Shown: positions 1,555-35,280 of the stretch, piece by piece
How the letters are laid out: every line of letters starts with the position of its first letter
Numbering within the stretch: the first letter of the stretch is position 1
Origin: Skermanella rosea
GTDB lineage: Bacteria > Pseudomonadota > Alphaproteobacteria > Azospirillales > Azospirillaceae
Length of the DNA stretch: 64,000 nt
Direction of reading: 5' to 3'
Assembly (NCBI RefSeq): GCF_016806835.2
Contig: NZ_CP086111.1
Coordinates: 427,501-491,500, forward strand
Position numbers and translations under genes: made by a program
Notes under the pieces: generated by a model
What the model was told of the DNA's origin: nothing
Database searches by the model: none
Seen by the model: only the letters and a program-made list of their open reading frames with translations

Positions 1555-1971
1555 TCAGCCGGCCGGAAACTCGCGGACCAGGGCATCGTCGAACTGGATC
1601 AGGTGGCGGCAGACCTCCAGCGCGGCGAGGTACTCGCCCTTGCGGCTCAGCTCCGAGATGATCGCCAGGCTGCGCAGCACCGGCTGAAGCTCGGTCGCCT
1701 CCGCCCGGTCGTCGAGCAGCGAGATCAGCTTCTCGTGGTAGATCCCGGCGGAGGCGCTGTCGAGGGTCATCAGCTGAAGCGCGTAATAGATGCGCTTGGT
1801 CGCCGTGTCGGCGTCCTTCTCGTCCAGGATCAACTGTTCGCGGGTCAGGGTCGGGGTGCCCTCGGGGACCATGACCGTGCCGTCGTCCTGCATGTGGATC
1901 GGAACGCCCTTGACGATGACGGTGCCGCCGGGCTGGAGCGGGAGAGCAATCAATTCGATCGTTTCGGTCAT
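1555..1971 (-). CDS. FlbT-like protein (divergent paralogue)
   Basis: 138 residues. It aligns by eye with the FlbT protein encoded at 17030-17446: IVKGVPI against IVVNGALI, a central LTREQLI...TKRIYYALQ segment against LTEKHIM...ARRIYFMIQ, and RKGEYLAALEV against QRGEYYQALKL near the end. FlbT proteins are post-transcriptional regulators of flagellin mRNA in Caulobacter, Brucella and Sinorhizobium. This copy is diverged, so its exact role is open. It lies between two glycosyltransferase genes on the same strand. The start ATG is preceded by GAGGG about ten bases upstream. A non-FlbT small flagellar regulator remains possible. Confidence 0.6.
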   Translation of the reverse strand: MTETIELIALPLQPGGTVIVKGVPIHMQDDGTVMVPEGTPTLTREQLILDEKDADTATKRIYYALQLMTLDSASAGIYHEKLISLLDDRAEATELQPVLRSLAIISELSRKGEYLAALEVCRHLIQFDDALVREFPAG

Positions 1972-2232: not shown

Positions 2233-3588
2233 TCATTGGGTCCGGAGGATTTCGTTTTCGATGGCCCGGACGCTCTGGGTGTCGTCGAACAGGAGAGGGA
2301 CGCGGTCGAGGACGCGGCGGATGACGTGGGCCCTGCGGTCTGGTTGGCTGGCGAGGTCGAGGGCGATGTCGACATAGTGGGCGTGGTCTCGGGCGACGCA
2401 GTCGTCGAGGCCCATCAGGCGGTAGAAGCCGTGGGTGTGGCGGCCGCGCATGAAGGCTCCGGGCCAGGTGACGATCGGGGTGCCCAGCGCGAAGGCCTCC
2501 AGGCTGGTGTTGCCGCCGCTGTAGTGCAGCGGGTCGAGCATGACGTCGCTGCACGCCACCAAGCTGAGGAAGTCGGGCAGCGGCATCTGGCGCAGGAAGC
2601 GGAAGCGCGCCGCGACGTCCGCTCCGGCGGCGGCGAGCCTGCGGCGCAGCAGGCCGTCCAGGTTGCGGTCGCGCCCCGAGAGCAGCACCACCAGGCCCCG
2701 CGGGTCGCGGCGCAGCAGCTCGACCAGGGCGCGGTCGAAGTCGGGATGGATCTTGAACAGGCTTTGCGGGCAGACATAGAGGCGGGCGTCGTCGGGCAGG
2801 CCGAAGGCGGAGCGCGGCTTGGGCCGGGCCGGCAGGCGGGGCCTCGCGTAGTGCAGGGTGGTCCCGGGCAGGCGGATCAGGCGCTCGGAGTAGTGGCGCT
2901 CGGCACCGTCCGGCTCCATGGCGGCGCACGACAGGAAGCGGTCGAGGTTGCGGATGCCGGTGGTGTCGGGATGGCCCCAGGCCAGGCACTGCAGCGGGGC
3001 GAGCCTGGCGAAGGCGAGGAAGTAGGTCAGGGCGGACATGCCGATGTCGGCGTAGTACAGCACGTCGAGGCGCCGGGTGGCGATCGCGTCGCGGGCGGCC
3101 CTGAGGTCGAGGGGCAGCTCGACGGTCGCGTCGGCGGCGCGGACCAGGGCGTCGCGCATGGCGTCGCCGGCGTGGGGGGTGGTGAACAGGGTGACGTGGA
3201 AGCGCTCGCGGTCGAGGTTCCGGATCAGGCCGAGGTTGAGCTTGGCGATGGTGTGCTGGTGCCAGTACTGGGAGACGAAGCCTACATGGGTGCGGCCGTC
3301 GGGCCGGGCCGGCGGGTCGGCGCGGTCCTGGAGCAGGTCGGGGCAGGCGGCCTCGTACAGGCCGGCGACGGCCTCCTGGAGGGGACGGTCGTCGGCGGCA
3401 TGGTAGGCCAGGTAGAAGCAGGTCTGGCCGACCTGGGCCAGCGGGTCGCGCAGCCGGATGCCCCGTCCGGTCAGCCGCGCCACCCCGTCGGCCAGCCGCT
3501 CCCGCACCTCCCGGATATGCGCCTCCGACTCCGGGATGATCGGGAGCGCCAGCGCCTCCTTCACCTCCAGCCCGGGATCGCCGCACAG
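2233..3588. repeat. Long direct repeat, copy 1 (catalytic half of OGT paralogue A)
   Basis: 1,356 bp match positions 14544-15899 at a constant offset of 12,311. The only difference I found is A at 3400 against G at 15711, a silent His codon change. The match begins exactly at the first base of the reverse-strand stop codon and ends at the TPR/catalytic linker. Sequence on both outer sides differs at once. Confidence 0.95.
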
Positions 3589-4797
3589 GCGGCGGGCCTG
3601 GCGGAAGGCCGTCCGGGCGCGCCCGGTATGCCCCTGGTCCAGCAGGATGTTGCCGAGCATCGTCTGGGCCCGCGCGAAATCCGGCGTCACGGCCAGCGCA
3701 TGGCCCAGCGTCGCGGCGGCGGCTTCGAGCCGGTGGTCGCGCAGGCGGGCGTTGGCCAGGCTGATCAGCGCCTCCGGATGGTCGGGCCGGACCCTGAGGG
3801 TGCGCAGCCACATCGCGACGGCCTCGCCGTGGCGGCCCAGGCCGGCGAGGGCGGCCCCGAGGTTGGACCAGGCGGTGGCGTAGCCGGGATCCACGGTCGC
3901 GGCCCGGGCCAGGGCGTCGCGGGCGTCGCCGTGGCGTCCCAGGCGGTTCAGGCAGAAGCCCAGGTTGTTCCAGGCTTCCACCCCGTCGGGACGCAGCGAC
4001 GCGGCGCGCCGGTATGCCGCCTCGGCCCCGTCCAGCCGGTCCAGGACGAGCAGGATGTTGCCGAGCGTCAACGGGGCAGCGGGGTCGGTCGGGTCGCACA
4101 GGGCCGCGCGGCGGGCGGCGGCCGCCGCCTGTTCCGGCAGTTCGCGCGCGGTCAGGACCATGGCCAGGTCGTGCCACGCGGAGGCGAGCGAGGGCTCGAT
4201 GGCCAGGGCATGCCGATGGACCTCGGCCGCGTCGGACAGGCGGCCCAGCCGGACCAAAGCGGTTCCCAGCCCGGCGAGCGCCGGTACGCCGGACGGATCG
4301 CGCGCCAGGGAGCCGCGGAACGCGGCCTCCGCCCCCGCGGGATCGCCGGCGGCCAGAAGCGCCATGCCCAGGTTCGCATGGGTCGGGGGTTGATCCGGCG
4401 CGAGCGCCGCCGCGGTCCCGAAGGCCCCGGCGGCTTCGGCCGGGTTTCCCTGCTCCAGCAACGCGTGGCCCAGGTTGAGCCAGGCCTCGATCATCCCCGG
4501 GTCCAGGCCGATCGCGCGCCGGTAGGCTTCGGCGGCGGCGTCGGGCCGTCCCTGGTGCCGCCGGGCGATGCCGTATTCCAGCAGGATGTCCGGGTCCCAG
4601 GGACGCGCCGCCACGAGGAGCCCGAAGGCGTCGGCCGCCAGGTCCCAGTCGCCGGCCTGGGCGCCGACCTGGCCGATCACGAGCAGGGTGCCGGCCGGAG
4701 GAGCCAGCGCCATCGCCTGCCGGCACGCCCGTGCCGCCTCGGCCAGGCGTCCCGCTTCATGATGGTGCTGGGCGGTCTTGAGGAGTTCGGCGAGCAT
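2233..4797 (-). CDS. TPR/SPINDLY-type O-linked glycosyltransferase (OGT paralogue A)
   Basis: 854 residues from the ATG at 4797 (MLAELLKTAQ); an upstream in-frame ATG at 4863 is also possible. Residues ~5-400 are about eleven TPR repeats of the form AWLNLGHALLEQGNPAEAAGAF. From residue ~403 to the end lies a GT41 catalytic region with THVGFVSQYWHQHTIAKLN, DVLYYADIGMSALTYFLAF, WGHPDTTGIRNLD and YSGGNTSLEAFALGTPIVTW (the donor-sugar-binding side of the GT-B fold). The catalytic half is virtually identical at DNA level to that of the gene at 14544-16610, while the TPR half is different. Flagellin is the likely acceptor because of the neighbourhood and the precedent of the TPR-bearing flagellin glycosyltransferase FlmG in Caulobacter. 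The actual acceptor and sugar are unproven. Confidence 0.88.
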   Translation of the reverse strand: MLAELLKTAQHHHEAGRLAEAARACRQAMALAPPAGTLLVIGQVGAQAGDWDLAADAFGLLVAARPWDPDILLEYGIARRHQGRPDAAAEAYRRAIGLDPGMIEAWLNLGHALLEQGNPAEAAGAFGTAAALAPDQPPTHANLGMALLAAGDPAGAEAAFRGSLARDPSGVPALAGLGTALVRLGRLSDAAEVHRHALAIEPSLASAWHDLAMVLTARELPEQAAAAARRAALCDPTDPAAPLTLGNILLVLDRLDGAEAAYRRAASLRPDGVEAWNNLGFCLNRLGRHGDARDALARAATVDPGYATAWSNLGAALAGLGRHGEAVAMWLRTLRVRPDHPEALISLANARLRDHRLEAAAATLGHALAVTPDFARAQTMLGNILLDQGHTGRARTAFRQARRLCGDPGLEVKEALALPIIPESEAHIREVRERLADGVARLTGRGIRLRDPLAQVGQTCFYLAYHAADDRPLQEAVAGLYEAACPDLLQDRADPPARPDGRTHVGFVSQYWHQHTIAKLNLGLIRNLDRERFHVTLFTTPHAGDAMRDALVRAADATVELPLDLRAARDAIATRRLDVLYYADIGMSALTYFLAFARLAPLQCLAWGHPDTTGIRNLDRFLSCAAMEPDGAERHYSERLIRLPGTTLHYARPRLPARPKPRSAFGLPDDARLYVCPQSLFKIHPDFDRALVELLRRDPRGLVVLLSGRDRNLDGLLRRRLAAAGADVAARFRFLRQMPLPDFLSLVACSDVMLDPLHYSGGNTSLEAFALGTPIVTWPGAFMRGRHTHGFYRLMGLDDCVARDHAHYVDIALDLASQPDRRAHVIRRVLDRVPLLFDDTQSVRAIENEILRTQ

Positions 4798-4891
4798 CTG
4801 CAGGCATCGTTCCGTGGGGGCTTGGGCCGCCGCACCGTAACACCGGCGCGGCCCCGGTGACATCCCGGTCTTTGCCGCCCGGCGCGGACGG

Positions 4892-6583
4892 TCAGGTGTT
4901 CCCGGCCCGGAACTCGGCGGTGAAGCGGGCCGCCTCGGCGCGCAGGGTGTCGATCTGCCGGGCGATCTGCACGGCGGAGCCGGTCATCCTCCCGACCGCG
5001 TCGTCGGTTTCGCGGATCGCCCGGGTCACGCTGCCGAGCCCGCCGGTGATCTCCCGTGCCGACCCGGCGCTGTCGGCCATGCTCGACGCGATCCGTTCGG
5101 TCGCGGCGCTCTGCTGCTCGACCGACCCGGCGATGGCGGTCGCGATCGCGTTGACCCGCTCGACCGTCGCCGCGACCTCCCGCATCGCCTCCACCGCCAT
5201 GCCGGTCTCCGATTGGATGTCGGCGACCTGGGTCGAGATCTCGGCGGTGGCCGACGCGGTCTGGTTCGCCAGCAGCTTGACTTCCTGCGCGACGACGGCG
5301 AAGCCCTTGCCGGCCTCCCCGGCTCTCGCCGCCTCGATGGTGGCGTTCAGCGCCAGCAGGTTGGTCTGCTTCGCGATGCCGTTGATCAGGCGGACGACGT
5401 CGCCGATCCGCTGCGCCGCGCCTTCCAGGTCCCGGATGCGCGCGGCGGCCTGCCCGGTATGGGCGACCGCCTCCCTCGTCACGGCAGCGGCCTCGGCCGT
5501 GCGGCCGCCGACCTCCTTGACCGACGACGCCAGATCCTCCGAAGCGGAGGCGATGCTCTCGACCGACGACGCGGTGCTTTCGGCGGCGGACTGGACGGCC
5601 ACCGCCTGGCGGCTCGCCGTGGCGGCCTGGGCCGAGATCCCTTCGGCGACCATGCGAAGATCCCGGTCGGCCCCGAGGAGGGCGGCGACGACGCCGGCGA
5701 CTCCGTCGTTGAAGCGGCCGGTGACCTCGGCCATGCGCAGGGCTTCCCGCGACGCCGCGTCCCGCCGCGCGTCCTCCGCCGCGCGCATCGCGTCCAGCGC
5801 GGATGCCTGGGTCTGCATGGTCAGGATCGCCCTGGTGACCTTCCCGAGTTCGTCGTCGGGCCCGGTTCCGTCGAGCGCCACGTCGCGCCGCCCCGCGCCG
5901 ATCGCCTGGATCGCGGCGGCCGCCTGCGCGAGGGGCCGGGTGATCGATCTGACGCTGAGCACCGACAGGACCAGCGCCGCGGCGATGGTCAGCAGCGTGA
6001 TCGCCGCGGTCAGCGCGATCGTGAAGCGGCCGGTCGTGGCGCTGTGCAGGGCACGTTCCGCCTTGCGGCGCCCGATCAGGTCGGAAATGGCGCCGTTGCG
6101 CTCCTCCAGGGTCTCGAACGCCTCGATGAAGTCCGGCATGCGGACCTGGGCCTCGACCGGGCTGGTCCGGGCCAGGCCGACGATCGTCTCCGCCGCGGCG
6201 ATGTAGCGGTTGAGCGCCGGCTCGACCTCCTCCAGGGCCGCCTTGATCTCCTGGTCCAGGCCGGACCGCTCCGCATTGGCCCGGAGCGCCGCGCGGAAGG
6301 TCCCCGCATGCTCGTCGAGCGCTTCGCGCGTCGCGTCATGGTCGCTCTCCTGCGTTCCGTAGGCGCTGGACAGCAGGGCGGTCAGGACGTCGGCGCGCAG
6401 GGCGTCGTGCATCATGTCGCCGAGCAGATGGCTGGCCAGGGCGTCCGACATGACGATCAGGTCGTCGGCGGCCCGGTTGGACGCGACGATACCCGCGGCC
6501 CCGATGCTCCCCGTGACTCCGGCGGCGATTGTCAGGCCGGCGGCAAGGCCGGTCAGGCGTTGGCGAAGCGTCGGGTGTGGCAT
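4892..6583 (-). CDS. Methyl-accepting chemotaxis protein
   Basis: 563 residues from the ATG at 6583 ([12 protein letters not shown]). There is an N-terminal membrane segment (~10-33), a periplasmic helical domain of ~150 residues, a second membrane segment ([22 protein letters not shown], ~190-212), a HAMP region, and a long cytoplasmic hairpin. The hairpin has the conserved MCP tip [19 protein letters not shown] followed by [15 protein letters not shown]. It senses an unknown ligand and controls CheA. An in-frame ATG at 6664 would add 27 residues but lies inside a perfect palindrome and gives a poor N-terminus. The 3' end lies just before OGT paralogue A on the same strand. Confidence 0.93.
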
Positions 6584-6647
6584 GGCTGCGCGGTCCTGGA
6601 CTGGAGTGGACGGGCTGGGGCAGGCGCGGGAGCATCGAATGCAGAAG

Positions 6648-6669
6648 GTTTCATGTCGCGACATGAAAC
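6648..6669. promoter_or_regulatory. Perfect 22-bp palindrome, probable operator
   Basis: The half-site GTTTCATGTCG is followed directly by its exact reverse complement CGACATGAAAC. It lies between the chemoreceptor gene (minus strand, start 6583) and the flgK side, beside an A/T-rich stretch (AAAATTAGTATAAATG) that could hold a promoter. The symmetry is typical of a dimeric regulator site. I do not recognise the regulator. Confidence 0.7.
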
Positions 6670-6742
6670 AAAATTAGTATAAATGACATATGCCTTGTAT
6701 CGGCCGCTCTGCTCCGGCATCCCGGCAAAGCATGCATGCCCC

Positions 6743-6757
6743 CGGCAGATTTTGCCG
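6743..6757. promoter_or_regulatory. Putative FlbD (ftr-like) site before flgK
   Basis: CGGCA-GATTT-TGCCG, embedded in a longer perfect repeat CCCGGCA/TGCCGGG (6741-6759). A weaker second copy, CGGCA-AAGCA-TGCAT, lies at 6723-6737. The sites sit ~90 bp upstream of the sigma-54 promoter, the usual position for an enhancer-binding protein. The same 15-mer recurs before other flagellar operons in this window. Confidence 0.65.
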
Positions 6758-6844
6758 GGACTCCGGGCCGGCGCAGCTTCGTTGCCGACCCCGCGGGCGG
6801 TCGGCAACGCCCCGAAGGCCCTTTGCGGTCGAAGAATTCTCCTT

Positions 6845-6862
6845 CTGGCCCGGAGATTGCTT
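6845..6862 (+). promoter_or_regulatory. Sigma-54 promoter of flgK-flgL
   Basis: CTGGCCCGGAGATTGCTT has the -24 GG and -12 GC separated by exactly ten bases and matches YTGGCMCGNNNNTTGCWT closely. The predicted transcript start (~6872) lies 35-47 bases before the flgK start codon. Confidence 0.8.
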
Positions 6863-6918
6863 GGAGGATCGCCGACAGGCACCGCATCCGGCGGGGCCTG
6901 CGGGTGATGGTGGATCAG

Positions 6919-8394
6919 ATGGGCCTCGACGTTTCCCTGCGCACGGCGATGAGCGGACTCCGGACTGTCCAGCAAGGGCTGGACGTCGTCTCGCGCAACA
7001 TCGCCAATGCCGACACTCCCGGCTATACGCGCAAGATCCAGACCCAGTATACCCAGGTCATCCAGGGCCAGAGCGTCGGCGTCCAGACCGGCAACGTCGA
7101 GCGCGAGGTCGACACCGCGCTTCAGAACGAGGTGCGCAAGCAGGGCAGCCGGGTCGCCAACCTGAGCGTGACGGAGCGGTACCTGGGCCAGGTCGAGACC
7201 CTGCATGGCGATCCCGAGTCGGAAAGCTCCCTGGGCAACGTGCTCAACCAGATGAAGGACGGCTTCACCCGGCTGATGGATTCGCCGAACTCCGTCCCGC
7301 TCCAGAACGAGGTGGTCTCGCTGGCCGACACAGTCGCCCGGACGCTGAACCGGGTGGCCGACGGGATCAACGATATCCGGACCCAGGTCCAGGTCGACAT
7401 CGAGGATGCGCTGACCGACCTGAACAACCAGTTCCAGCGGGTCGACGACCTCAACCGGCAGATCCGCTCGCTGACCGCCACCGGCCAGCCCCAGCCCGAC
7501 CTGGAGGACCAGCGGGACGAGGCGCTGCGGAAGATCTCCGAGCAGATCGAGGTCAACGTGATGCGCCGGGGCGACGGCACGGTCTCGATCCTCGACCGGT
7601 TCGGCCAGCCTTACCTGGAGGCCGGCTATCAGCCCCTGTCCATCTCCCAGGTCTCGATCAACCCGCAGGCGGCATATCCCGGCGCCATCGGCCCGATCCG
7701 CCTGGGCGATCCCTCGACCGGCACCGACGTCACCCCAAGGCTGGCGCAGGGCGGCAACCTGGGCGGGCTGCTCCAGCTGCGCGACCAGACCTTGCCGCGG
7801 TTCCAGGCCCAGCTCGACGAGATGGCCCAGACCATGGGCGAGGCGTTCGAGGGCGCCGGGCTCCTCCTGTTCACCGACAGCACGGGCGTGGTTCCGGTCG
7901 ATGACCCGCTCGCGTCCCCGCCCACCTCGTCGGTCGGCTTCGCCAACCAGATCCGGGTGGCGCAGGACGTCATCGACACGCCGAGCCTGCTGCGCGACGG
8001 ATCGCCGATCGTCCCGGGCACCGCCCCGGCGAACAGCAACCTGCTGCGCACGATCGTCGACAGCGTGCTGGGCGGCGACCAGGCTTTCGATACCACCGGC
8101 CTCGGACCCAACGCCGACCTGGGCACCGTGCTGCCCGGCAGCACGACGCTGGCGTCCTTCGCCGCCGAACTGGTCAGCCACCAGACCAACCTGCGGGCCA
8201 GCACCACCGCCCAGCTCGAACCCGCCACGACGCTGCGCGACCATCTGAGGACCAAGCTGTCCGATCAATCCGGCGTTAACCTGGACCAGGAAGTATCGCT
8301 CCTGATCCAGCTGCAGCGTTCCTATTCCAGCTCCGCCCAGGTCGTCTCGACCAACCGGCAGCTGTTCAACGACCTCATCTCGATCCTGCGCTGA
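6919..8394 (+). CDS. flgK: Flagellar hook-associated protein 1 (FlgK)
   Basis: 491 residues from the ATG at 6919, preceded by GGTGG with five bases spacing; an ATG at 6907 is the alternative. The N-terminus LDVSLRTAMSGLRTVQQGLDVVSRNIANADTPGYTRK (quoted only as far as needed: SRNIANADTPGYTRK) is the flagellar rod/hook-type motif. The C-terminus has the amphipathic helix INLDQEVSLLIQLQRSYSSS typical of FlgK. FlgK forms the first hook-filament junction ring outside the cell and is exported by the flagellar type III apparatus. It forms an operon with flgL (20-base gap) behind the sigma-54 promoter. Confidence 0.95.
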   Translation: MGLDVSLRTAMSGLRTVQQGLDVVSRNIANADTPGYTRKIQTQYTQVIQGQSVGVQTGNVEREVDTALQNEVRKQGSRVANLSVTERYLGQVETLHGDPESESSLGNVLNQMKDGFTRLMDSPNSVPLQNEVVSLADTVARTLNRVADGINDIRTQVQVDIEDALTDLNNQFQRVDDLNRQIRSLTATGQPQPDLEDQRDEALRKISEQIEVNVMRRGDGTVSILDRFGQPYLEAGYQPLSISQVSINPQAAYPGAIGPIRLGDPSTGTDVTPRLAQGGNLGGLLQLRDQTLPRFQAQLDEMAQTMGEAFEGAGLLLFTDSTGVVPVDDPLASPPTSSVGFANQIRVAQDVIDTPSLLRDGSPIVPGTAPANSNLLRTIVDSVLGGDQAFDTTGLGPNADLGTVLPGSTTLASFAAELVSHQTNLRASTTAQLEPATTLRDHLRTKLSDQSGVNLDQEVSLLIQLQRSYSSSAQVVSTNRQLFNDLISILR

Positions 8395-8414
8395 TCCGAC
8401 CAGGGAGTCCGGCC

Positions 8415-9449
8415 ATGACCTCGATCTCGACCAACGGACAGTTCCTGCGGCTCCAAACCCAGAACCTGGCCATCCAGCAGCGCCTGACCGAGACTTCCGC
8501 GCAGGTGTCGAGCGGCAAGAAGACGTCCGTCTACGGCGGGCTGGGCGCCGACGCGCGCCAGTCGATCGACCTGCGCGGCCAGGTGACCGAGCTGGACACC
8601 TACCAGAAGAACATCGCCTCCGCGAAGCTGCGGGTCTCCAGTGCGGTCGAGACCATGGACCGCATCAAGAACGTGGCGCGCGACGTGCGCGAGCAGCTGA
8701 CCAAGCTGACCGGCAACCCGCCGCCCAACCAGACCGTGGTCCAGGACATCGCCCGGCGCGGCTACGAGGAGGTCGTGCAGCTCCTCGGCACCCAGGTGGA
8801 GGGGCGTTATATCTTCGCCGGCAGCGACATCGACAACCCGCCGTTCCCCAACTCCGCCCAGTTCTTCACCGACGTGGAGACGGAAGTGACCGCCTTCGCC
8901 GCCAACGGCGCCGCGGCGACCCTGGCGGCGACCACGGCGATCGCGACCGACGACACCTATTTCTCGACGGCGCTCCAGGCTGCCGATCCGTCGCCGCTCC
9001 GCGCGCGCGTGGACCGCAACCTCGACCTCAGCTACCAGGTCCGAGCCAACGGACCGGAAAGCCCGGCCCCGCCCGCCGGGGAACTCGCGCCGTTCCGCGA
9101 GATCCTGCGCAGCCTGGCGACCGCCGCGACCCTGACCTACGACACGGCCAATCCCGGCTCCTTCACCGACTACACCACCATGCTGGACACCACGCGCAAC
9201 GCGCTGGACAGCGCCGCCAAGAACCTGGACAACCATGTCGGCATCCTCGGCTCCACCTACGAGCGGATGGAGGCGATCGACAACCAGCACGACGTGACCG
9301 CCCAGACGGCCAGGACGAACCTGGGCGACGTGGAGGACGTCGACATGGCCGAGGCGATCACCAAGCTGCAGCTGATCCAGACCCAGCTCCAGGCATCCTA
9401 CAAGGTGACGTCGACCCTGCGGCAGGTGAACCTGATCGACTTCCTGTAA
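8415..9449 (+). CDS. flgL: Flagellar hook-associated protein 3 (FlgL)
   Basis: 344 residues, the second junction protein between hook and filament. It has flagellin-like ends: LRLQTQNLAIQQRLTETSAQ with VSSGKKTSVYGG at the N-terminus and MAEAITKLQLIQTQLQASYK at the C-terminus, plus the FlgL-typical GRYIFAGSDIDNPPF. A good GGGAG ribosome site lies seven bases before the ATG. It lies 20 bases after flgK. Confidence 0.95.
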   Translation: MTSISTNGQFLRLQTQNLAIQQRLTETSAQVSSGKKTSVYGGLGADARQSIDLRGQVTELDTYQKNIASAKLRVSSAVETMDRIKNVARDVREQLTKLTGNPPPNQTVVQDIARRGYEEVVQLLGTQVEGRYIFAGSDIDNPPFPNSAQFFTDVETEVTAFAANGAAATLAATTAIATDDTYFSTALQAADPSPLRARVDRNLDLSYQVRANGPESPAPPAGELAPFREILRSLATAATLTYDTANPGSFTDYTTMLDTTRNALDSAAKNLDNHVGILGSTYERMEAIDNQHDVTAQTARTNLGDVEDVDMAEAITKLQLIQTQLQASYKVTSTLRQVNLIDFL

Positions 9450-9548
9450 CGTCCGTCCCGGCAACGCCGTCCGGCGCGGGAGGAGCCTTCACGACTCGTC
9501 AATCATCCCGGTGCTAACCAGCCGCGTTGACCTCACGCGGGAAGCCTG

Positions 9549-10721
9549 ATGAAGCTCGTCGTCCTCGATCCCGGCCTGGACAGCACGGCCGGCCACCACT
9601 ACCACCTGGACCTCGTGCTGCGGGAGCAGGCGGCCGCCCACGGGATTGAGTCGGTGTTCTACGGGTTCAAGGGAATGGATCCGGCGATCGAGGACCAGTT
9701 CGACGCCCGCCTGATCTTCGACCTGCACTCCTACGCCAAGGTCGCCGGCCTGCCGGAACTGGCGCCGATCCAGAACTGGTCGACCAAGAACACCAGTTTC
9801 TGCCGCAACCTGTGCGACGGCGTGCCGGCCGATTTCGAAGCCGACGACATCGTGGTCATGCACACGGTGCTGGGCAGCGAGATGGTCGGCCTCTATCTGT
9901 GGTACCGAAGCCTGCCGGACCCGAAGCCGCGCGTGTGCCTGGTCCTGCGCTTCCCGCCCTGGTTCCACCTGGCGCGCCCGTATCACGAGATCGCGGTGGC
10001 GCTGGAGCGCTACGCTGTCTCGCTGTGGACCGAGTTCCCGGCGGAGCGCGTGATGATGGCGTGCGACAATGCCGGCCTGGCCCGCTTCTACAGCAAGCTC
10101 GCCGGTTTCGAGATGCCGAGCCTGCCGATCCCGATCCGCTATCCCGCCGTGACTGCCCGGGACGGAAGATCATCGAGACCCCGTTTCGTGTACTTGGGCG
10201 AGGCGCGGGAGGAAAAGGGCATCCACCTGATCGTCGAGTCGCTGCGCCGTCGCCCCGCCGCCCTGGCCGGCATCGACTTCACGATCCAGTGCGGTCGGCC
10301 GGAGCTGCTCGGGCCGCTGCTGGGGGAATGGCGCCAGGACCTCCCCGAGGTCGATTTCGTGGACCGGAACCTGTCCGAGGCGGAATATCTCGATCTGCTG
10401 TCGAGCGCCGACGCGGTGCTGGTTCCCTACCAGCCCGACATCTACGACGTGCGCACGTCCCACGTCTATCTGGAGGCGGTCGGGACCGGCAAGCCGGTGC
10501 TGATAACCTCCGGCTCCTGGATGGACCTGGAGTCCGCCCGCCTCGGCCACACGCCCGCGCGCGCCGCTGATTTCACCGTGGACTCGGTCGAGGAGGCCCT
10601 CGTCCGCCTGGTCGGCGACTGGCGGGATCTGCGGGCGCTCGGGCCTGCCGCGGGCGAGCGGTGCCGGGCATATCACAACCCTGCGACATTTTTTGACAGG
10701 CTGCTTTCCCTTTTCCCGTGA
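9549..10721 (+). CDS. GT-B fold glycosyltransferase
   Basis: 390 residues. The N-terminus VVLDPGLDSTAGHHYHLDL suggests a GT-B enzyme that begins with a substrate-binding loop. The second half contains FVYLGEAREEKGIHLIVES and VLVPYQPDIYDVRTSHVYLEA, the nucleotide-sugar binding segment of GT1/GT4-like families. No signal peptide or membrane segment, so cytoplasmic. It sits between flgL and flagellin, which suggests a part in flagellin glycan building; this is inferred from position only. Good GGAAG ribosome site. Confidence 0.8.
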   Translation: MKLVVLDPGLDSTAGHHYHLDLVLREQAAAHGIESVFYGFKGMDPAIEDQFDARLIFDLHSYAKVAGLPELAPIQNWSTKNTSFCRNLCDGVPADFEADDIVVMHTVLGSEMVGLYLWYRSLPDPKPRVCLVLRFPPWFHLARPYHEIAVALERYAVSLWTEFPAERVMMACDNAGLARFYSKLAGFEMPSLPIPIRYPAVTARDGRSSRPRFVYLGEAREEKGIHLIVESLRRRPAALAGIDFTIQCGRPELLGPLLGEWRQDLPEVDFVDRNLSEAEYLDLLSSADAVLVPYQPDIYDVRTSHVYLEAVGTGKPVLITSGSWMDLESARLGHTPARAADFTVDSVEEALVRLVGDWRDLRALGPAAGERCRAYHNPATFFDRLLSLFP

Positions 10722-10833
10722 GAAGGCGCCGGTAGCCATCGGCGCGCCCCTTCTGGAGGGGCGGGAAACCGCGGAATCCCTGATGTCCCGCATACAACTG
10801 AAGATGCGGATGTCCCTTGCGGGAATCTGGCAA

Positions 10834-10849
10834 TTAAGACTCTTTTTAC
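10834..10849 (+). promoter_or_regulatory. CtrA-like box upstream of flagellin (one mismatch)
   Basis: TTAA-GACTCTT-TTTAC has the TTAA-N7-TTAAC layout with one mismatch. It lies ~60 bases before the flagellin start. I found no canonical sigma-54 motif (GG-N10-GC) in 10722-10910, so the flagellin promoter remains undefined. Confidence 0.35.
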
Positions 10850-10910
10850 GGTCTGAGCTTACCATCGACTCGCGGAAGAAGACCGCAATCTATCCAAAAT
10901 GGAGGCACCG

Positions 10911-11729
10911 GTGGCCAACTCGGTTAATACCAACATCGGGGCGATGATCGCCCTGAAAAACCTGAACAACGTCAGCGACTCGCTGTCGACCACCCAGAAG
11001 CGCATCAGCACCGGCCTGAACGTCGCCGACGCCTATGACGACGGCGCGTCCTATGCCGTCGCGGAAGGCATCCGCAGCGACGTCAAGGCGATCGGCGCGG
11101 TGAACGAGCGTCTCGCGGTCGGCAAGGGCATGATCGACGTCGCCGTCAAGGCCGGCGAAAACATCTCCAAGTCGCTCCAGGACGTCCGCGTCGTCCTCAC
11201 CAAGCTGGCCGACCAGGCGCTGACCGGTGCGGACCGCACGAACTACGAGAACCAGTACAACACGCTGAAGAACGACATCGACAACTTCATCAAGGACGCC
11301 AAGTACAACAACATCACCCTGATCAACACCGACACCAACCAGTCGATCATCTCCAACATCGACGGCGGCAACATCACGGTGACGTCGCAGAACCTGGCGA
11401 CCGCCGTCTATGCCCAGCTTTCCGCCGCGTCGGACTACTCGGCCGCCGCCACGCTGATCGCGACGACCGGCGCTCTTGCCAACGCGGAAAGCAACCTCGG
11501 CCGCGCCATGAACCAGCTGGCCGCCGACAGCCGCCGCATCACGAACCAGATCGGGTTCAACAATGCGATCGCCGACGCGACCAACACCGGCCTGGGCGCC
11601 ATCGTCGACGCCGACCTCGCGAAGGAAAGCGCGCGGCTGCAGTCCCTGCAGGTGAAGCAGCAGCTGTCCAGCCAGGCGCTATCGATCGCCAACCAGTCGC
11701 CTCAGTCGCTGCTGGGCCTGTTCCGTTAA
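10911..11729 (+). CDS. Flagellin
   Basis: 272 residues, a short flagellin with the conserved N-terminal D0/D1 helix (ANSVNTNIGAMIALKNLN, then QKRISTGLNVADAYDD) and C-terminal helix (RLQSLQVKQQLSSQALSIAN ending SPQSLLGLFR). The central region is small and Ser/Thr/Asn-rich, offering possible glycosylation sites. The start is taken as GTG at 10911 because a strong GGAGG lies five bases upstream; the ATG at 10899 overlaps that ribosome site. It is the filament subunit, exported through the flagellar apparatus. flaF follows after a hairpin. Confidence 0.95.
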   Translation: MANSVNTNIGAMIALKNLNNVSDSLSTTQKRISTGLNVADAYDDGASYAVAEGIRSDVKAIGAVNERLAVGKGMIDVAVKAGENISKSLQDVRVVLTKLADQALTGADRTNYENQYNTLKNDIDNFIKDAKYNNITLINTDTNQSIISNIDGGNITVTSQNLATAVYAQLSAASDYSAAATLIATTGALANAESNLGRAMNQLAADSRRITNQIGFNNAIADATNTGLGAIVDADLAKESARLQSLQVKQQLSSQALSIANQSPQSLLGLFR

Positions 11730-11747
11730 GGCCGCGCCCGCGTCCAA

Positions 11748-11775
11748 CCCTCTCCGGGCACCGTCCCGGAGGGGG
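11748..11775 (+). terminator. Hairpin between flagellin and flaF
   Basis: Stem CCCTCTCCGGG / CCCGGAGGGGG (11 pairs, one G-U) with loop CACCGT. It lacks a T-run, so it is more likely an mRNA-stabilising or attenuating hairpin at the flagellin 3' end than a full terminator. Confidence 0.55.
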
Positions 11776-11854
11776 CACGACGGCCTCAAGGCCCTTCCGA
11801 CGGTCCCCTTTCTCCCAAATCATCAGAAAATCGCAGTTCTGAACGGAAGTGGCA

Positions 11855-12253
11855 ATGAACTCGAAGATCAATGCCTACAAGCAAGCGGCGATGATGAAGA
11901 CCGATTATCGTTCGCAAGAGGCCAATCTCTTCAAGCGAGTCACCTTTGGCCTGATCCAGGGCAAGGCGAATCCCAACGGCATGGACCTGGTCCGCGCCGC
12001 CTCGGACGACAAGCTTCTCTGGATGACCATCGTCAAGCTGCTGCAGGACGACCAGAACCGCCTGCCGGCTCCGCTCCGCGCGCAGATCATTTCGATCGGC
12101 CAGGCGGTGATCCGCGAGATCGACCAGAACATCACCGGCACGCTCGATGTCGATTTCCTGATCGACATCAATACCCAGATGATCGAAGGCCTTGCCGCCC
12201 AGCCCGAGACGGCCGCCGCCGCGGGTCTGCCGACCGAAATCCCCTCGGCATAA
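11855..12253 (+). CDS. flaF: Flagellar biosynthesis regulator FlaF
   Basis: 132 residues from the ATG at 11855, which has GGAAG five bases upstream; a GTG at 11849 is in frame. It matches FlaF in size and pattern (KINAYKQAAMM, RSQEANLFKRVTFGLI, WMTIVKLLQDDQNRLP, IISIGQAVIREI). In Caulobacter FlaF supports flagellin synthesis and secretion and opposes FlbT. Its place directly after flagellin agrees with this. Confidence 0.9.
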   Translation: MNSKINAYKQAAMMKTDYRSQEANLFKRVTFGLIQGKANPNGMDLVRAASDDKLLWMTIVKLLQDDQNRLPAPLRAQIISIGQAVIREIDQNITGTLDVDFLIDINTQMIEGLAAQPETAAAAGLPTEIPSA

Positions 12254-12296
12254 GGGAGCCGGTCCCGACGATCAGACGACACCGCGGAGTCCGACC

Positions 12297-13037
12297 ATGT
12301 CCAGCAGCCTCGTCTTCGCCAAGATGCCGGCGATCGCCGCATACAAGCTCGCCCTGAAGCAGGGCGACGCGGCGCTTGAAAAGATGGCGGACCGAAAGGA
12401 CGTCAAGGCCGAGGTGGACTATTTCAACAAGAACATCCAGAGCGTGAAGTCCGTCGACGACCTCTTCAAGGACAGGCGGATGATCCAGTTCGTGCTGGAC
12501 GCCGTCGACCTGGGCAAGGAAACCGGCAAGATGGGCCTGATCAAAAAGGTCCTGACCCAGAAGGCCGACGACCCCGACGCCCTGATGAACAAGCTTGTCG
12601 ACAAGCGCTTCAAGACGGCGGCCAGCCTTCTCAAGCTGGGCGAGAACGGTCTCGGCACGATCCAGCGCGAGAGCACCAAGGCGGATCTGGCCGAGCTTTA
12701 CGTCAAGAACAAGTACGATGCCGGACTGGCATCGCAGAACTCGGCGGTTCCGCTGGCCTTGTACTTCAAGGAGAACGCCTCGTCCGTCAAGAACACGTAC
12801 GAGATCCTCGGCGACCAGCGGATGCGCCACGTCGTGACCACGGCGCTCGGCCTTCCGTTGCAACTCGCCAACCAGTCGGTCGAAGCACAGGCCGCGGCGA
12901 TCGAGAAGCGGCTGAAGCTGTCCGACCTGAAGGACGGGAAATTCGTCGACAAGCTGGCCCAGCGTTTCCTGATGGCATCCGACGACGGCTCCTCGGCGAC
13001 GGGGGCCAACAAGTACATGCTGAACCTCTTTGCGTGA
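12297..13037 (+). CDS. DUF1217 flagellar-associated protein
   Basis: 246 residues from the ATG at 12297 with GGAG eight bases upstream. The sequence has the DUF1217 pattern: KAEVDYFNKNIQSVKSVDDL, KDRRMIQFVLDAVDL and DKLAQRFLMASD. DUF1217 proteins are found in alphaproteobacterial flagellar clusters and their role is unknown. No signal peptide; largely helical and Lys-rich. It is probably co-transcribed with flaF and the following TPR-methyltransferase gene. Confidence 0.8.
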   Translation: MSSSLVFAKMPAIAAYKLALKQGDAALEKMADRKDVKAEVDYFNKNIQSVKSVDDLFKDRRMIQFVLDAVDLGKETGKMGLIKKVLTQKADDPDALMNKLVDKRFKTAASLLKLGENGLGTIQRESTKADLAELYVKNKYDAGLASQNSAVPLALYFKENASSVKNTYEILGDQRMRHVVTTALGLPLQLANQSVEAQAAAIEKRLKLSDLKDGKFVDKLAQRFLMASDDGSSATGANKYMLNLFA

Positions 13038-13130
13038 GATGCCGGACACCCCAGCCCTGGCGGTGGCTTTCCCCCGCGCCGGCGGTGTCCGCCGCAACAC
13101 CGGTCGAGCGCCGGGATCTGGAGAAGATGA

Positions 13131-14465
13131 ATGTCTGCTGAAATGACCATGGAAATGCCGGCCGACGTCGCCAAGTTGGCGGACCTCAAGCAGCGCGCCG
13201 CGATCCTGCTGACGCGCGGCGACCTGGACGGCGCCCGCTCCGCGGTCGATGCCGCGATGATCGATCAGCCCGAGGATGCCGACCTGCTGGCGCTGCGCGG
13301 CACCTGCCGGGCCCGGCAGGGGGAACTGAGCGACGGCATCCAGGATCTCGCCACCGCCGTGATGGCCCGGCCGCGCGACTGGGAACTGCTGAACAGCCTC
13401 GCGGTCCATCTCCAGCAGATGAAGATGTTCGACGAGGCGGTCGTCTTCCATGTCAAGGCGATCAACAATTCCGAACCGGAGCAGCATCCGCAGCTCTACA
13501 TCAACCTGGGCCTCGCGATGATGGGGCAGGGCGAGCACCTTGCGGCGGTGGAGCTGTTCGAGGCGGTCCTGGCGGTCCATCCGGATATGCTGGATGCCGC
13601 GGTCAACCTGTCCAGCGCCTTGAACTCGCTGAAGGAATACGGCCGCAGCGTCGAGGCGTGCCGACGGACCCTGGCGATCGTCGAGGCCCCCGAGCTGTAC
13701 CACAACCTGGGCAACGCGCTGCACCGGATTCCCGGGCGCAACGCCGATGCCCTCGCCGCGTTCCAGCGGGCGGTCGAGCTCGATCCGACGAACTGGAAAT
13801 CGAAGCACATGCTCTCCCTGCTGCGGGACGAGGACATGGACTCGATCCCGGCGAACTTCGTGGAAGGGATGTTCGATGAATATGCCAGCTTCTACGAGCG
13901 GGACGTCATCGAGAAGCTGCGCTATCGCGTTCCCGGGCTGATCCGGCGCTACCTGCTGAAGGCAGTCCCCGGCAGGACCCGCTTCGCCTCCGTGCTGGAC
14001 CTCGGCTGCGGCACCGGCCTGACCGGCGTCATGCTGCGCGACATCGCGGACTTCCAGAAGGGCGTCGATATCTCGCGGAACATGCTGAAGCTGGCCCTGG
14101 AGAAGGAGATCTACGACCAGCTCGAGGCCGCCGACCTGCAGGTTTCCCTGGGGGAGATCGACCGGGCTTATTCCGTCGTCGCCGCCGCGGACGTGTGCGG
14201 CTATATCGGTCGCCTGGAGGAGTTCTTCGCCAAGGTGGAGGCCGTCGTCGAGTCCGAAGGTCTGTTCGCCTTCTCGGTGGAGGAGTCGTTCCTGGCGGAT
14301 TTCGAGGTCTCGGCCGCCGGCCGGTTCGCCCACCGCCGGACCTATGTCCAGAAGGCCCTGGCCGATGCCGGCTTCAAGGTGCTGTCGGTCGCGCGCGAGC
14401 AGCTTCGCAACAGCGGCGGCCGGCCCGTGTTCGGCATGATCTTCGTCGCCCAGAAGACGGCCTGA
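13131..14465 (+). CDS. TPR domain fused to SAM-dependent methyltransferase
   Basis: 444 residues. Residues ~10-230 are TPR repeats (AVHLQQMKMFDEAVVFHVKA, LYINLGLAMMGQGEHLAAVE). Residues ~240-444 form a class I methyltransferase with motif I SVLDLGCGTGLTGVML, as in COG4976-type TPR-methyltransferases. The substrate is not evident. Position after flagellin-flaF-DUF1217 suggests modification of flagellin or of its glycan, with the TPR part recognising the substrate. GGAGAAG ribosome site; a strong terminator follows the stop codon. Confidence 0.85.
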   Translation: MSAEMTMEMPADVAKLADLKQRAAILLTRGDLDGARSAVDAAMIDQPEDADLLALRGTCRARQGELSDGIQDLATAVMARPRDWELLNSLAVHLQQMKMFDEAVVFHVKAINNSEPEQHPQLYINLGLAMMGQGEHLAAVELFEAVLAVHPDMLDAAVNLSSALNSLKEYGRSVEACRRTLAIVEAPELYHNLGNALHRIPGRNADALAAFQRAVELDPTNWKSKHMLSLLRDEDMDSIPANFVEGMFDEYASFYERDVIEKLRYRVPGLIRRYLLKAVPGRTRFASVLDLGCGTGLTGVMLRDIADFQKGVDISRNMLKLALEKEIYDQLEAADLQVSLGEIDRAYSVVAAADVCGYIGRLEEFFAKVEAVVESEGLFAFSVEESFLADFEVSAAGRFAHRRTYVQKALADAGFKVLSVAREQLRNSGGRPVFGMIFVAQKTA

Positions 14466-14494
14466 CCGTCCGGTCCCGGGTAGCGGGCGGCATG

Positions 14495-14529
14495 GGCCGG
14501 AAGAGGGGCAACCCTCTTCCGGCCTTTTT
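14495..14529 (+). terminator. Rho-independent terminator of the flagellin-side operon
   Basis: Perfect 13-bp stem GGCCGGAAGAGGG / CCCTCTTCCGGCC, loop GCAA, then TTTTT. It ends the plus-strand transcript just before the convergent OGT paralogue B. Confidence 0.93.
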
Positions 14530-14543
14530 CGCTGGAGAAAGGC

Positions 14544-15899
14544 TCATTGGGTCCGGAGGATTTCGTTTTCGATGGCCCGGACGCTCTGGGTGTCGTCGAA
14601 CAGGAGAGGGACGCGGTCGAGGACGCGGCGGATGACGTGGGCCCTGCGGTCTGGTTGGCTGGCGAGGTCGAGGGCGATGTCGACATAGTGGGCGTGGTCT
14701 CGGGCGACGCAGTCGTCGAGGCCCATCAGGCGGTAGAAGCCGTGGGTGTGGCGGCCGCGCATGAAGGCTCCGGGCCAGGTGACGATCGGGGTGCCCAGCG
14801 CGAAGGCCTCCAGGCTGGTGTTGCCGCCGCTGTAGTGCAGCGGGTCGAGCATGACGTCGCTGCACGCCACCAAGCTGAGGAAGTCGGGCAGCGGCATCTG
14901 GCGCAGGAAGCGGAAGCGCGCCGCGACGTCCGCTCCGGCGGCGGCGAGCCTGCGGCGCAGCAGGCCGTCCAGGTTGCGGTCGCGCCCCGAGAGCAGCACC
15001 ACCAGGCCCCGCGGGTCGCGGCGCAGCAGCTCGACCAGGGCGCGGTCGAAGTCGGGATGGATCTTGAACAGGCTTTGCGGGCAGACATAGAGGCGGGCGT
15101 CGTCGGGCAGGCCGAAGGCGGAGCGCGGCTTGGGCCGGGCCGGCAGGCGGGGCCTCGCGTAGTGCAGGGTGGTCCCGGGCAGGCGGATCAGGCGCTCGGA
15201 GTAGTGGCGCTCGGCACCGTCCGGCTCCATGGCGGCGCACGACAGGAAGCGGTCGAGGTTGCGGATGCCGGTGGTGTCGGGATGGCCCCAGGCCAGGCAC
15301 TGCAGCGGGGCGAGCCTGGCGAAGGCGAGGAAGTAGGTCAGGGCGGACATGCCGATGTCGGCGTAGTACAGCACGTCGAGGCGCCGGGTGGCGATCGCGT
15401 CGCGGGCGGCCCTGAGGTCGAGGGGCAGCTCGACGGTCGCGTCGGCGGCGCGGACCAGGGCGTCGCGCATGGCGTCGCCGGCGTGGGGGGTGGTGAACAG
15501 GGTGACGTGGAAGCGCTCGCGGTCGAGGTTCCGGATCAGGCCGAGGTTGAGCTTGGCGATGGTGTGCTGGTGCCAGTACTGGGAGACGAAGCCTACATGG
15601 GTGCGGCCGTCGGGCCGGGCCGGCGGGTCGGCGCGGTCCTGGAGCAGGTCGGGGCAGGCGGCCTCGTACAGGCCGGCGACGGCCTCCTGGAGGGGACGGT
15701 CGTCGGCGGCGTGGTAGGCCAGGTAGAAGCAGGTCTGGCCGACCTGGGCCAGCGGGTCGCGCAGCCGGATGCCCCGTCCGGTCAGCCGCGCCACCCCGTC
15801 GGCCAGCCGCTCCCGCACCTCCCGGATATGCGCCTCCGACTCCGGGATGATCGGGAGCGCCAGCGCCTCCTTCACCTCCAGCCCGGGATCGCCGCACAG
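14544..15899. repeat. Long direct repeat, copy 2 (catalytic half of OGT paralogue B)
   Basis: Partner of 2233-3588 in the same orientation: 1,355 of 1,356 positions identical as far as I could compare, including all reading frames. The intervening ~11 kb holds flgKL, flagellin and its accessory genes, so recombination between the copies could delete the locus. Confidence 0.95.
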
Positions 15900-16610
15900 C
15901 TTCCAGGCCTGCCGGAACGAGGCCCTCGCCTCTTCGGTCAGGCCCTGCTGGCGGAGCGCCATCCCGGCACCGGCGAAGGAGGCCGGATCGGCCGGACGGA
16001 CATGGGCCGCCCGGCGGAACTGGGCCAGCGCCTCCCGGAACCGGCCCTGCTCGATCAGCGCATTGCCCAGATTGACCAGGGCCGGCGCGTGGTCGGGCCG
16101 AATCGCCACGGCCATGCCCGCCGCCGCCGCGGCCTCGGCGATCCGGCCGCGCTCGTGGAGCGCATTGCCCAGGTTGCACCAGGTCTCGGGATCGCCGGGC
16201 CTCAGGGCAAGGGCCTGTCGATAGGCCCGGATCGCCTCCTCGAAGCGGCCGAGGCCGGTCAGGGCATTGCCCAGGTTGAACCAGGCTTCCACGAAGCCCG
16301 GCTCCAGGACGGTCGCGCGCCGGTAGGCGCCCAGCGCCTCCTCCGTCCGCGCGAGGCGCCGCAGCGCCATGCCGAGGTCGCACCAGCCGTCGGCGTCGTC
16401 GGGTGCCAGGACAAGGGTCCTGCGGTAGCAGCCCGCCGCCTCCTCGACGCGTCCCTGATCCTCCAGCGCGGTGCCCAATGCACGGTGGAGCGAGGCCACC
16501 GACCCGTCCAGGGCCAGGGCTTGGCGGTAAAGCGCCTCGGCCTCGCCGGGCCTTCCGTCGGTCTGGTGCCGGCGGGCCACCGCCGCAAGCTGTTCGAGCA
16601 TGGCCTTCAC
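14544..16610 (-). CDS. TPR/SPINDLY-type O-linked glycosyltransferase (OGT paralogue B)
   Basis: 688 residues from the ATG at 16610 (MKAMLEQLAAVARRHQ; M4 is an alternative). Residues ~6-235 hold six to seven TPR repeats such as AWFNLGNALTGLGRFEEAIR, different from those of paralogue A. From residue ~238 to the end the protein is identical to paralogue A, including THVGFVSQYWHQHTIAKLN and YSGGNTSLEAFALGTP. It therefore joins the same catalytic module to a shorter TPR adaptor. It is convergent with the flagellin-flaF-methyltransferase operon. A cytoplasmic protein glycosyltransferase, probably acting on flagellin or another flagellar protein; the acceptor is not shown by sequence. Confidence 0.88.
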   Translation of the reverse strand: MKAMLEQLAAVARRHQTDGRPGEAEALYRQALALDGSVASLHRALGTALEDQGRVEEAAGCYRRTLVLAPDDADGWCDLGMALRRLARTEEALGAYRRATVLEPGFVEAWFNLGNALTGLGRFEEAIRAYRQALALRPGDPETWCNLGNALHERGRIAEAAAAAGMAVAIRPDHAPALVNLGNALIEQGRFREALAQFRRAAHVRPADPASFAGAGMALRQQGLTEEARASFRQAWKLCGDPGLEVKEALALPIIPESEAHIREVRERLADGVARLTGRGIRLRDPLAQVGQTCFYLAYHAADDRPLQEAVAGLYEAACPDLLQDRADPPARPDGRTHVGFVSQYWHQHTIAKLNLGLIRNLDRERFHVTLFTTPHAGDAMRDALVRAADATVELPLDLRAARDAIATRRLDVLYYADIGMSALTYFLAFARLAPLQCLAWGHPDTTGIRNLDRFLSCAAMEPDGAERHYSERLIRLPGTTLHYARPRLPARPKPRSAFGLPDDARLYVCPQSLFKIHPDFDRALVELLRRDPRGLVVLLSGRDRNLDGLLRRRLAAAGADVAARFRFLRQMPLPDFLSLVACSDVMLDPLHYSGGNTSLEAFALGTPIVTWPGAFMRGRHTHGFYRLMGLDDCVARDHAHYVDIALDLASQPDRRAHVIRRVLDRVPLLFDDTQSVRAIENEILRTQ

Positions 16611-17029: not shown

Positions 17030-17446
17030 TCAGGCCCGTCTGGCGTCCTGCCAGCTCGGCTGGTCGAGGAAACGGTCCTCGTGCTTCATCACCGCGTCGG
17101 CCAGTTTCAGGGCCTGGTAGTATTCGCCCCGCTGCACGAGCGAGCGTATCGACTCCAGCGTTTCCTTGATCGCCGGGACCGTCGTCGCCTCATGGAAGTC
17201 GTCGACGAAGCCTTCCAGCGTCTCGAGCAGCGGCGGCCGTTCCTGGTCGGTCGCCATGTATGAATTCTGGATCATGAAATAGATCCGCCGTGCCGGGGTC
17301 GACGCGGACTGCGGCGGCATGATGTGCTTTTCCGTCAGGAACGAGACGTTGTTCAGGAAGATCAGAGTGCAGCGGCCATCGGCCTGGATCAGGGCCCCGT
17401 TGACGACGATGCGTTCTTCCGGTGCCAGGCGAATCTTCAACGACAC
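17030..17446 (-). CDS. flbT: Flagellin mRNA regulator FlbT
   Basis: 138 residues from the GTG at 17446, chosen because FlbT proteins start close to the LKIRLAPEERIVVNGALIQ motif; an ATG at 17485 would add 13 residues. The core NVSFLTEKHIM...ARRIYFMIQ and the C-terminal RGEYYQALKLADAV match the family. FlbT binds the flagellin 5' leader in Caulobacter and modulates its stability and translation. It is separated from flgE by a region with a perfect CtrA-type box. Confidence 0.9.
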   Translation of the reverse strand: MSLKIRLAPEERIVVNGALIQADGRCTLIFLNNVSFLTEKHIMPPQSASTPARRIYFMIQNSYMATDQERPPLLETLEGFVDDFHEATTVPAIKETLESIRSLVQRGEYYQALKLADAVMKHEDRFLDQPSWQDARRA

Positions 17447-17567
17447 TGCGGATACCCGTATGGAAGTGGTGCGGTCGACGAGCACAGTAGCATTTCGCGC
17501 ACGCGGGCACAGCAGTTAGGTGCCCGAATTCGACCGGGCGCCGAAGGGCGCCCGATCCAGTTCAACC

Positions 17568-35206: not shown

Positions 35207-35247
35207 AAAAGCGCTTTCCGCCGTGGCTGCACCACGGCGGAAAGCGC
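35207..35247 (-). terminator. Rho-independent terminator of flgF-flgG-flgA-flgH
   Basis: Perfect 16-bp stem GCGCTTTCCGCCGTGG / CCACGGCGGAAAGCGC with a five-base loop; on the minus strand it is followed by TTTTC. It lies ~35 bases after the flgH stop codon. Confidence 0.92.
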
Positions 35248-35280
35248 TCCTTGATTCCATTTGCCTTTCAGGGCCATTCG

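Follow-up and report, generated by a model that had tools for sequence, protein, structure and literature searches.

Recurrent gene conversion as the very probable link between the catalytic halves of two GT41-type genes around a Skermanella flagellin locus

This report concerns two genes that flank a flagellin gene set in the alphaproteobacterium Skermanella rosea, within a stretch of 64,000 nucleotides (contig NZ_CP086111.1, positions 427,501 to 491,500) that was analysed as a whole and is called the window here, all coordinates being given in its own numbering. Gene A (2233..4863, minus strand, 876 amino acids) and gene B (14544..16610, minus strand, 688 amino acids from a putative GTG start as listed) each join a half made of tetratricopeptide repeats (TPR) to a glycosyltransferase half of family GT41. 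The catalytic halves are practically the same in both genes and the TPR halves very different, and we consider it very likely that recurrent gene conversion, acting in an old pair of genes conserved in position, is what keeps the catalytic halves alike.

The shared tract and the enzymes that carry it

When compared base by base at an offset of 12311, window positions 2233-3588 and 14544-15899 are the same at 1355 of 1356 sites. The sole mismatch, A at 3400 (3400..3400, in the minus-strand feature) against G at 15711, falls in the third position of a CAT/CAC codon and is silent, His being encoded in both genes (residue 488 of gene A, residue 300 of gene B). The 1,356-bp match with one silent difference claimed in an earlier note on this DNA is thus borne out by the base comparison and the codon check, and a 1.36-kb match at 99.9% identity is far above chance. 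The first copy (2233..3588, minus strand) covers residues 426-876 of gene A and the second (14544..15899, minus strand) residues 238-688 of gene B, each with the stop codon, a TGA common to both genes. With both genes on the minus strand, these are direct repeats, set 12,311 bases apart.

The borders of the tract are sharp, with the first bases beyond it differing at both ends (2232/14543 and 3589/15900). Without gaps, 98 of 133 bases are unlike in the flank on the stop side (2100-2232), and so are 107 of 212 in the flank on the TPR side (3589-3800), where codons 426 (gene A) and 238 (gene B) mark the limit of the tract. The TPR halves themselves (3589..4863, minus strand, 425 residues in gene A; 15900..16610, minus strand, 237 residues in gene B) are not homogenised and share 51.3% DNA identity over 711 aligned sites, so the same note was right that they are clearly different, as it was in placing the start of the match exactly at the stop codon. 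The whole genome holds two copies of the tract, the next relatives standing at 37%, 33% and 29% protein identity. Besides the tract and the match of the whole window to itself, a BLAST search of the window against itself (E<=1e-5) returned only a 60-bp TPR match and a palindrome of about 40 bp, a near-perfect one at 35210-35248.

Both proteins score above the cut-off of 25 bits for the Pfam family PF13844, gene A with 58.4 bits and gene B with 59.5 bits; among the NCBIfam matches listed, none exceeds its own cut-off for either gene. An AlphaFold2 model of gene B, built with 33 relatives, has a pLDDT (predicted local distance difference test) of 95 and a pTM (predicted template modelling score) of 0.91, and consists of a TPR superhelix of 14 helices followed by a GT-B catalytic domain of the OGT/SPY fold. 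Its best matches in the PDB are Arabidopsis SPINDLY (8dth_B, E 4.2e-35; 8dti_A, TM 0.72/0.78) and human OGT, with the Xanthomonas OGT (XcOGT) ranking from 44 on, and together with PF13844 they bear out the label of SPINDLY-type enzymes. The tract boundary, at residues 237/238 of the model, coincides with the end of the last TPR helix (225-239), which places it within a few residues of the TPR/catalytic linker, as had been claimed.

In the alignment to XcOGT the motif QHTI of the query pairs with AHPT, and FKIHP with YKLNP. In an alignment of 34 sequences (gene B of the window and 33 of 51 loci) K516 is invariant and H349 is present in at least 90%; we take the aligned His and Lys to be the GT41 catalytic residues. 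On sequence and model, genes A and B are GT41-fold protein glycosyltransferases whose predicted activity is to transfer sugar to Ser/Thr or Asn of proteins.

The pair in other species

The comparison within the genus covers five genomes, the window's own (G000, 7 contigs, completeness 98.93) and four others, G001 to G004, with 1, 5, 280 and 190 contigs, respectively. Among the 59 relatives searched, 41 match the catalytic half, but only G001 and G002 do so at 92-94% identity, and these two hold the same pair in the same position and gene order as the window. Within a genome, the catalytic halves of A and B differ at 1 of 1353 sites in the window, 22 of 1350 in G001 (28 listed differences less 6 gap columns) and 20 of 1353 in G002. 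This corresponds to 98.4-98.5% identity in the latter two, figures of 98.66% and 98.68% referring to BLAST pieces and not to the full tract, against 93-95% across species, where the 12 comparisons give 69-96 differences.

The silent sites and the phylogeny follow the same division. Synonymous divergence (dS) of the catalytic half is 0.003 in the window, 0.028 in G001 and 0.029 in G002 when the two copies of a genome are compared, and 0.126-0.166 across species. The 1350 ungapped columns of the three species comprise 1217 invariant and 133 variable ones; in 99 of the latter A and B carry the same base in each species and at least one species differs from the others, none (0) separates every A copy from every B copy, and the remaining 34 follow other patterns. 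All nine topologies that place the A copies apart from the B copies are rejected, with log-likelihoods worse by at least 280 and p values of at most 8.03e-6 in the approximately unbiased (AU) test. In a protein tree of 43 rows, the two copies of each genome group together with support of 99/92, 99/99 and 98/96; the rows were chosen by hand from 91 catalytic sequences past a length filter, nine rows that were duplicates or fragments having been left out beforehand.

Unlike the catalytic halves, the TPR halves follow gene position. Their amino acid identity to the window's is 83-90% between A and A and 90-91% between B and B, but only 36-45%, in the best stretch, between A and B. Their cross-species dS is 0.215-0.315, above that of the tract; seven neighbouring genes span 0.074-0.290, a range that includes the values of the tract, which is therefore not unusually slow across species.

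These observations amount to concerted evolution, with copies closer within species than between them, at silent sites too, and TPR halves that group by position. A separate duplication in each species does not explain the pair, because three species share the same neighbours and the same TPR halves, and in Arenibaculum, too, the flagellar genes keep this order. The earlier note had proposed a recent gene conversion or copying of a module: the conversion stands, in the form of species-specific homogenised pairs, and the recent single event gives way to recurrent conversion in an old pair found across the genus. Relatives in which the two genes are equally alike along their whole length, which that note had said would count against it, were not seen, as in G001 and G002 the catalytic halves are homogenised and the TPR halves divergent.

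The differences that remain between copies are concentrated at the edges of the tract, 13 of 22 in G001 and 15 of 20 in G002 lying in the outer 45 columns of each side, that is, in 90 of 1356 columns. At the TPR-side edge, in the first 13 codons of the tract (3550..3588, minus strand), the relatives have a B-specific version distinct from the A version: the B copies of G001 and G002 keep VRMAL where the A version reads VKEAL, and gene B of the window has VKEAL. In all, both relatives' B copies share a base unlike that of their A copies at seven columns (7, 30, 32, 34, 35, 36 and 1349, in an alignment where five of the six rows have a gap at the first codon column), and at six of these gene B of the window carries the base of its own gene A and of gene A in G001. 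This fits conversion of B by A in the lineage of the window, probably the direction that the last event took in this species, as far as the sequences tell. The edge sites adjoin unique sequence, which would make polishing with short reads an unlikely cause.

An outgroup is provided by Arenibaculum pallidiluteum, in which two such genes flank flaF, flagellin and flgL/flgK-like genes with the gene order of the window; the order of the flagellar genes around and between the pair is kept there as in G001 and G002. Its catalytic halves share 58.5% protein identity with each other and 56.3-59.2% with those of the window. The TPR half of its gene B scores 101 bits against window B and 71 against window A, while gene A gives a weak signal (52 against 47 bits). 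These comparisons make the pair older than the three species, in its TPR halves and order of genes as well, and probably older than the split from Arenibaculum. We read the comparison as pointing to an old pair that became homogenised in the window's genus and not in Arenibaculum.

As to the two remaining genomes of the genus, which are drafts of short contigs, the search of relatives listed only a catalytic piece of 78 residues in G003, and in both drafts contigs end at the tract. One contig of G004 (C69) starts at window 3538 and ends at 14677, another (C30) ends at 15849 and a third (C62) at 2366. Exactly 51 terminal bases are common to the start of C69 and the end of C30, after which the two diverge (30 matches in the following 60 positions). 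The ends of C69 and C62 likewise have 51 terminal bases in common, and 58 of the 60 bases that follow agree. In G003, two contigs (C13 and C267) have ends with 49 terminal bases in common. Such shared ends are what an assembler would leave at a collapsed repeat. Signs of homogenisation are thus direct in three genomes of the genus and indirect in G003 and G004, in G003 on one side only. The locus is one at which short-read assemblies break, and should be treated with caution for that reason.

Gene conversion and its alternatives

The course of events that we propose starts from an old, position-conserved pair of GT41-fold enzymes of the SPINDLY/OGT type flanking the flagellin locus. Repeated intrachromosomal conversion between the direct repeats, 12.3 kb apart, would homogenise the catalytic halves, while the TPR halves, presumably already too different to recombine, would evolve separately. 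Conversion spans the shared homology and ceases where this runs out, with the stop codon as the limit on one side and the close of the last TPR helix on the other. The latest event in the window's species would be recent and probably ran from gene A to gene B.

Several observations weigh against this account. At edge column 36 both copies of the window carry the B base, a misfit with copying from A to B. The Arenibaculum copies group together in the protein tree with support of only 87/63, and an older homogenisation may have occurred within that lineage. Neither G003 nor G004 yields a match to the catalytic half at E<=1e-60, and on the stop-codon side of G003 the start of contig C7 and contig C13 share no terminal sequence of 15 bases or more. 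Finally, polishing with short reads could have raised the likeness of the window's two copies, although two things argue against an artefact of general reach: the edge sites border on unique sequence, and two relatives retain 20-22 residual differences.

The alternative that survives best is compatible with conversion and concerns function only. According to it, the copies are homogenised simply because they lie close together, as a neutral by-product, and the TPR halves do not divide the acceptors between them, the pair being redundant or serving dosage. In bacteria, conversion between direct repeats of more than 1 kb at a distance of 12 kb occurs readily, and the diverged Arenibaculum copies (58.5%) imply that identity is not needed in every lineage. 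On the other side, the TPR halves are kept by position (83-91% amino acid identity) and remain strongly unlike each other (425 against 237 residues), which suggests distinct jobs. We regard the neutral by-product as possible, with somewhat less than an even chance. The contrasting functional reading is one catalytic core with two acceptor-binding TPR adaptors, which fits the anatomy of the genes and the precedent of FlmG discussed below, and to which we would give about an even chance. One donor sugar and one chemistry would then be offered to different acceptors, most plausibly different flagellins or other flagellar proteins. It is a more tentative suggestion that selection keeps the shared core through continual conversion, so that two sets of flagellar acceptors would get the same sugar and the adaptors would be free to specialise.

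An error of assembly or polishing, whereby one gene was placed twice or two genes were homogenised by multi-mapped short reads, has to be considered because near-identical repeats are the classic site of such errors. We hold it to be very improbable: the single contig of G001 and the five contigs of G002 hold the pair with 22 and 20 differences clustered at the edges, it is the short-contig drafts that break at the tract, and neither the TPR halves nor the outer flanks of the two genes resemble one another. Seen in the window alone, one silent difference in 1356 bases between sharp borders does look like a single recent transfer of the catalytic module to a gene whose TPR array is different, an instance of domain shuffling. 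Yet the same pair with nearly the same borders, each time with a species-specific homogenised sequence, in G001 and G002, the un-homogenised pair in the same order in Arenibaculum, and above all the species-specific pairing (99 sites against 0) contradict a single copying as the whole story, which we consider highly improbable. Purifying selection on the DNA without any copying, to which the conservation of the catalytic protein (91-94% between the window and the two other species) would lend some colour, has a negligible chance, as the low dS within but not across species, where it lies in the range of the seven neighbour genes, means that silent sites can vary freely and yet do so in step in the two genes. 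The reading that we retain is recurrent conversion within an old pair.

The flagellar locus, the acceptors and related systems

The DNA between the two genes (4892..14465) holds several open reading frames (ORFs), flagellar genes included. These are a chemoreceptor-like ORF (4892-6664), flgK-like and flgL-like ORFs, a glycosyltransferase-like ORF (9549-10721) that scores just under its Pfam cut-offs, the flagellin gene (10899..11729, plus strand), flaF (11849-12253), a further ORF (12192-13037) and a TPR-methyltransferase (13131-14465); the flgK and chemoreceptor labels are presumptive. FlbT-family genes occur on both outer sides of the pair, one upstream of gene B (17030..17485, minus strand) and a second one downstream of gene A (1555..1971, minus strand). 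Also near gene A lies a third gene with TPR and GT41 parts (2-1513), which runs off the start of the window and is about 33% identical in its catalytic part; in the four other genomes of the genus a match to it, at 68-88%, adjoins the small FlbT gene.

Some of these genes vary among relatives. The chemoreceptor-like gene sits between flgK and gene A and has a match of 589 residues in G002; in G001 only a piece of 53 residues was matched (L086 13132-13290), and the spacing of the pair is 10.8 kb there, not 12.3 kb. Part of that gene (about 5087-5563), which we take to be its signalling domain, recurs at dozens of places in G003 and G004, with DNA identities of about 69-84%. In the window, G001 and G002 the glycosyltransferase-like gene stands between flgL on one side and flagellin on the other, in Arenibaculum it adjoins gene A, and in G003 its DNA match falls on another contig (G003:C215:9005-10192); among the loci of relatives it is seen at L088 15760-16920. 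Because the repeats are direct, the flagellin locus between them could in principle be lost or amplified; each of the five genomes of the genus has flagellin and flgK/flgL-like genes in that interval.

Candidate acceptors are not confined to this locus. The Flagellin_N domain has six matches in the window's genome, two of them within the window, 6, 6, 4 and 4 in the other four members of the genus and 5 in Arenibaculum (one under the cut-off), the counts of 4-6 per genus genome including hook-associated-type proteins. With several such genes per genome, two adaptors could serve different acceptors, and redundancy is equally possible. A dispersed flagellin of 272 amino acids was confirmed by the scan at 5.66 Mb (G000:C1), and the three ORFs beside it, two metabolic enzymes and one without a match, give no pairing of a TPR half with this flagellin; ORFs near dispersed flagellins were picked greedily by length in a GC-rich genome, so that several are probably on the wrong strand, and 6 of 9 scanned proteins matched nothing.

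The closest known architecture is that of FlmG, a cytoplasmic flagellin glycosyltransferase of Caulobacter crescentus whose N-terminal TPR half binds flagellins and precedes a C-terminal GT-B half, as in genes A and B, and whose substrate specificity is placed in the N-terminal domain; the same paper calls the way in which specificity is built into protein O-glycosylation poorly understood (PMC7591256). FlmG is one gene, as described there, whereas the window has two with a homogenised core, and the likeness rests on architecture. FlmG also uses pseudaminic acid (PMC7591256). The Caulobacter control genome has some PF13844 match. A nonulosonic-acid donor, considered on the precedent of FlmG, was rejected, as the NeuB family (PF03102) has 0 matches in the window's genome and matches in 9 of 14 control genomes, Caulobacter included, which makes pseudaminic or legionaminic acid unlikely as the donor here. 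Flagellin glycosylation islands of enterobacteria contain SPINDLY-family (COG3914) GT41 enzymes suggested to add N-acetylglucosamine derivatives to flagellin; they belong to another bacterial class, and the consulted part of the source describes no homogenised pair (PMC4875605).

Paralogues with the same output and different input domains are known from Campylobacter jejuni, where the receptors Tlp2, Tlp3 and Tlp4 have identical signalling domains and input domains about 30% identical, and where the tree of signalling domains largely mirrors the genome tree and that of sensors does not. In this respect they resemble genes A and B, but they are receptors explained by domain duplication, and gene conversion is mentioned once in the text seen, for pseudogenes (PMC9769880). 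Conversion is reported to homogenise single domains within polyketide synthases and non-ribosomal peptide synthetases (PMC4256081), which are assembly lines of many modules and not, as here, two separate genes flanking a flagellin locus. Long-lasting concerted evolution has been described for 26 prokaryotic genes whose paralogues are, like genes A and B, closer within than between species, with flagellin (fla) of Alteromonadales on the list; recurrent gene conversion is given as the main cause, separate tandem duplications also being allowed by the authors, and the main text of this survey contains the term 'glycosyl' 0 times (PMC6053082). Searches of an open-access library, from which most subscription journals are absent, listed no paper whose title or abstract opening describes such a homogenised pair of glycosyltransferases.

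Gene conversion and concerted evolution in bacteria, conversion limited to a domain, and paralogues with the same output are thus known; what is new is a clean two-gene case of GT41 enzymes at a flagellar locus with an un-homogenised outgroup. As an example of conversion confined to one domain across a genus, it has the advantage that this outgroup is available for comparison. For the enzymes themselves it constitutes a natural experiment, in which two glycosyltransferases at one flagellin locus combine practically the same catalytic half with very different TPR halves, so that the TPR half would have to account for any difference in acceptors.

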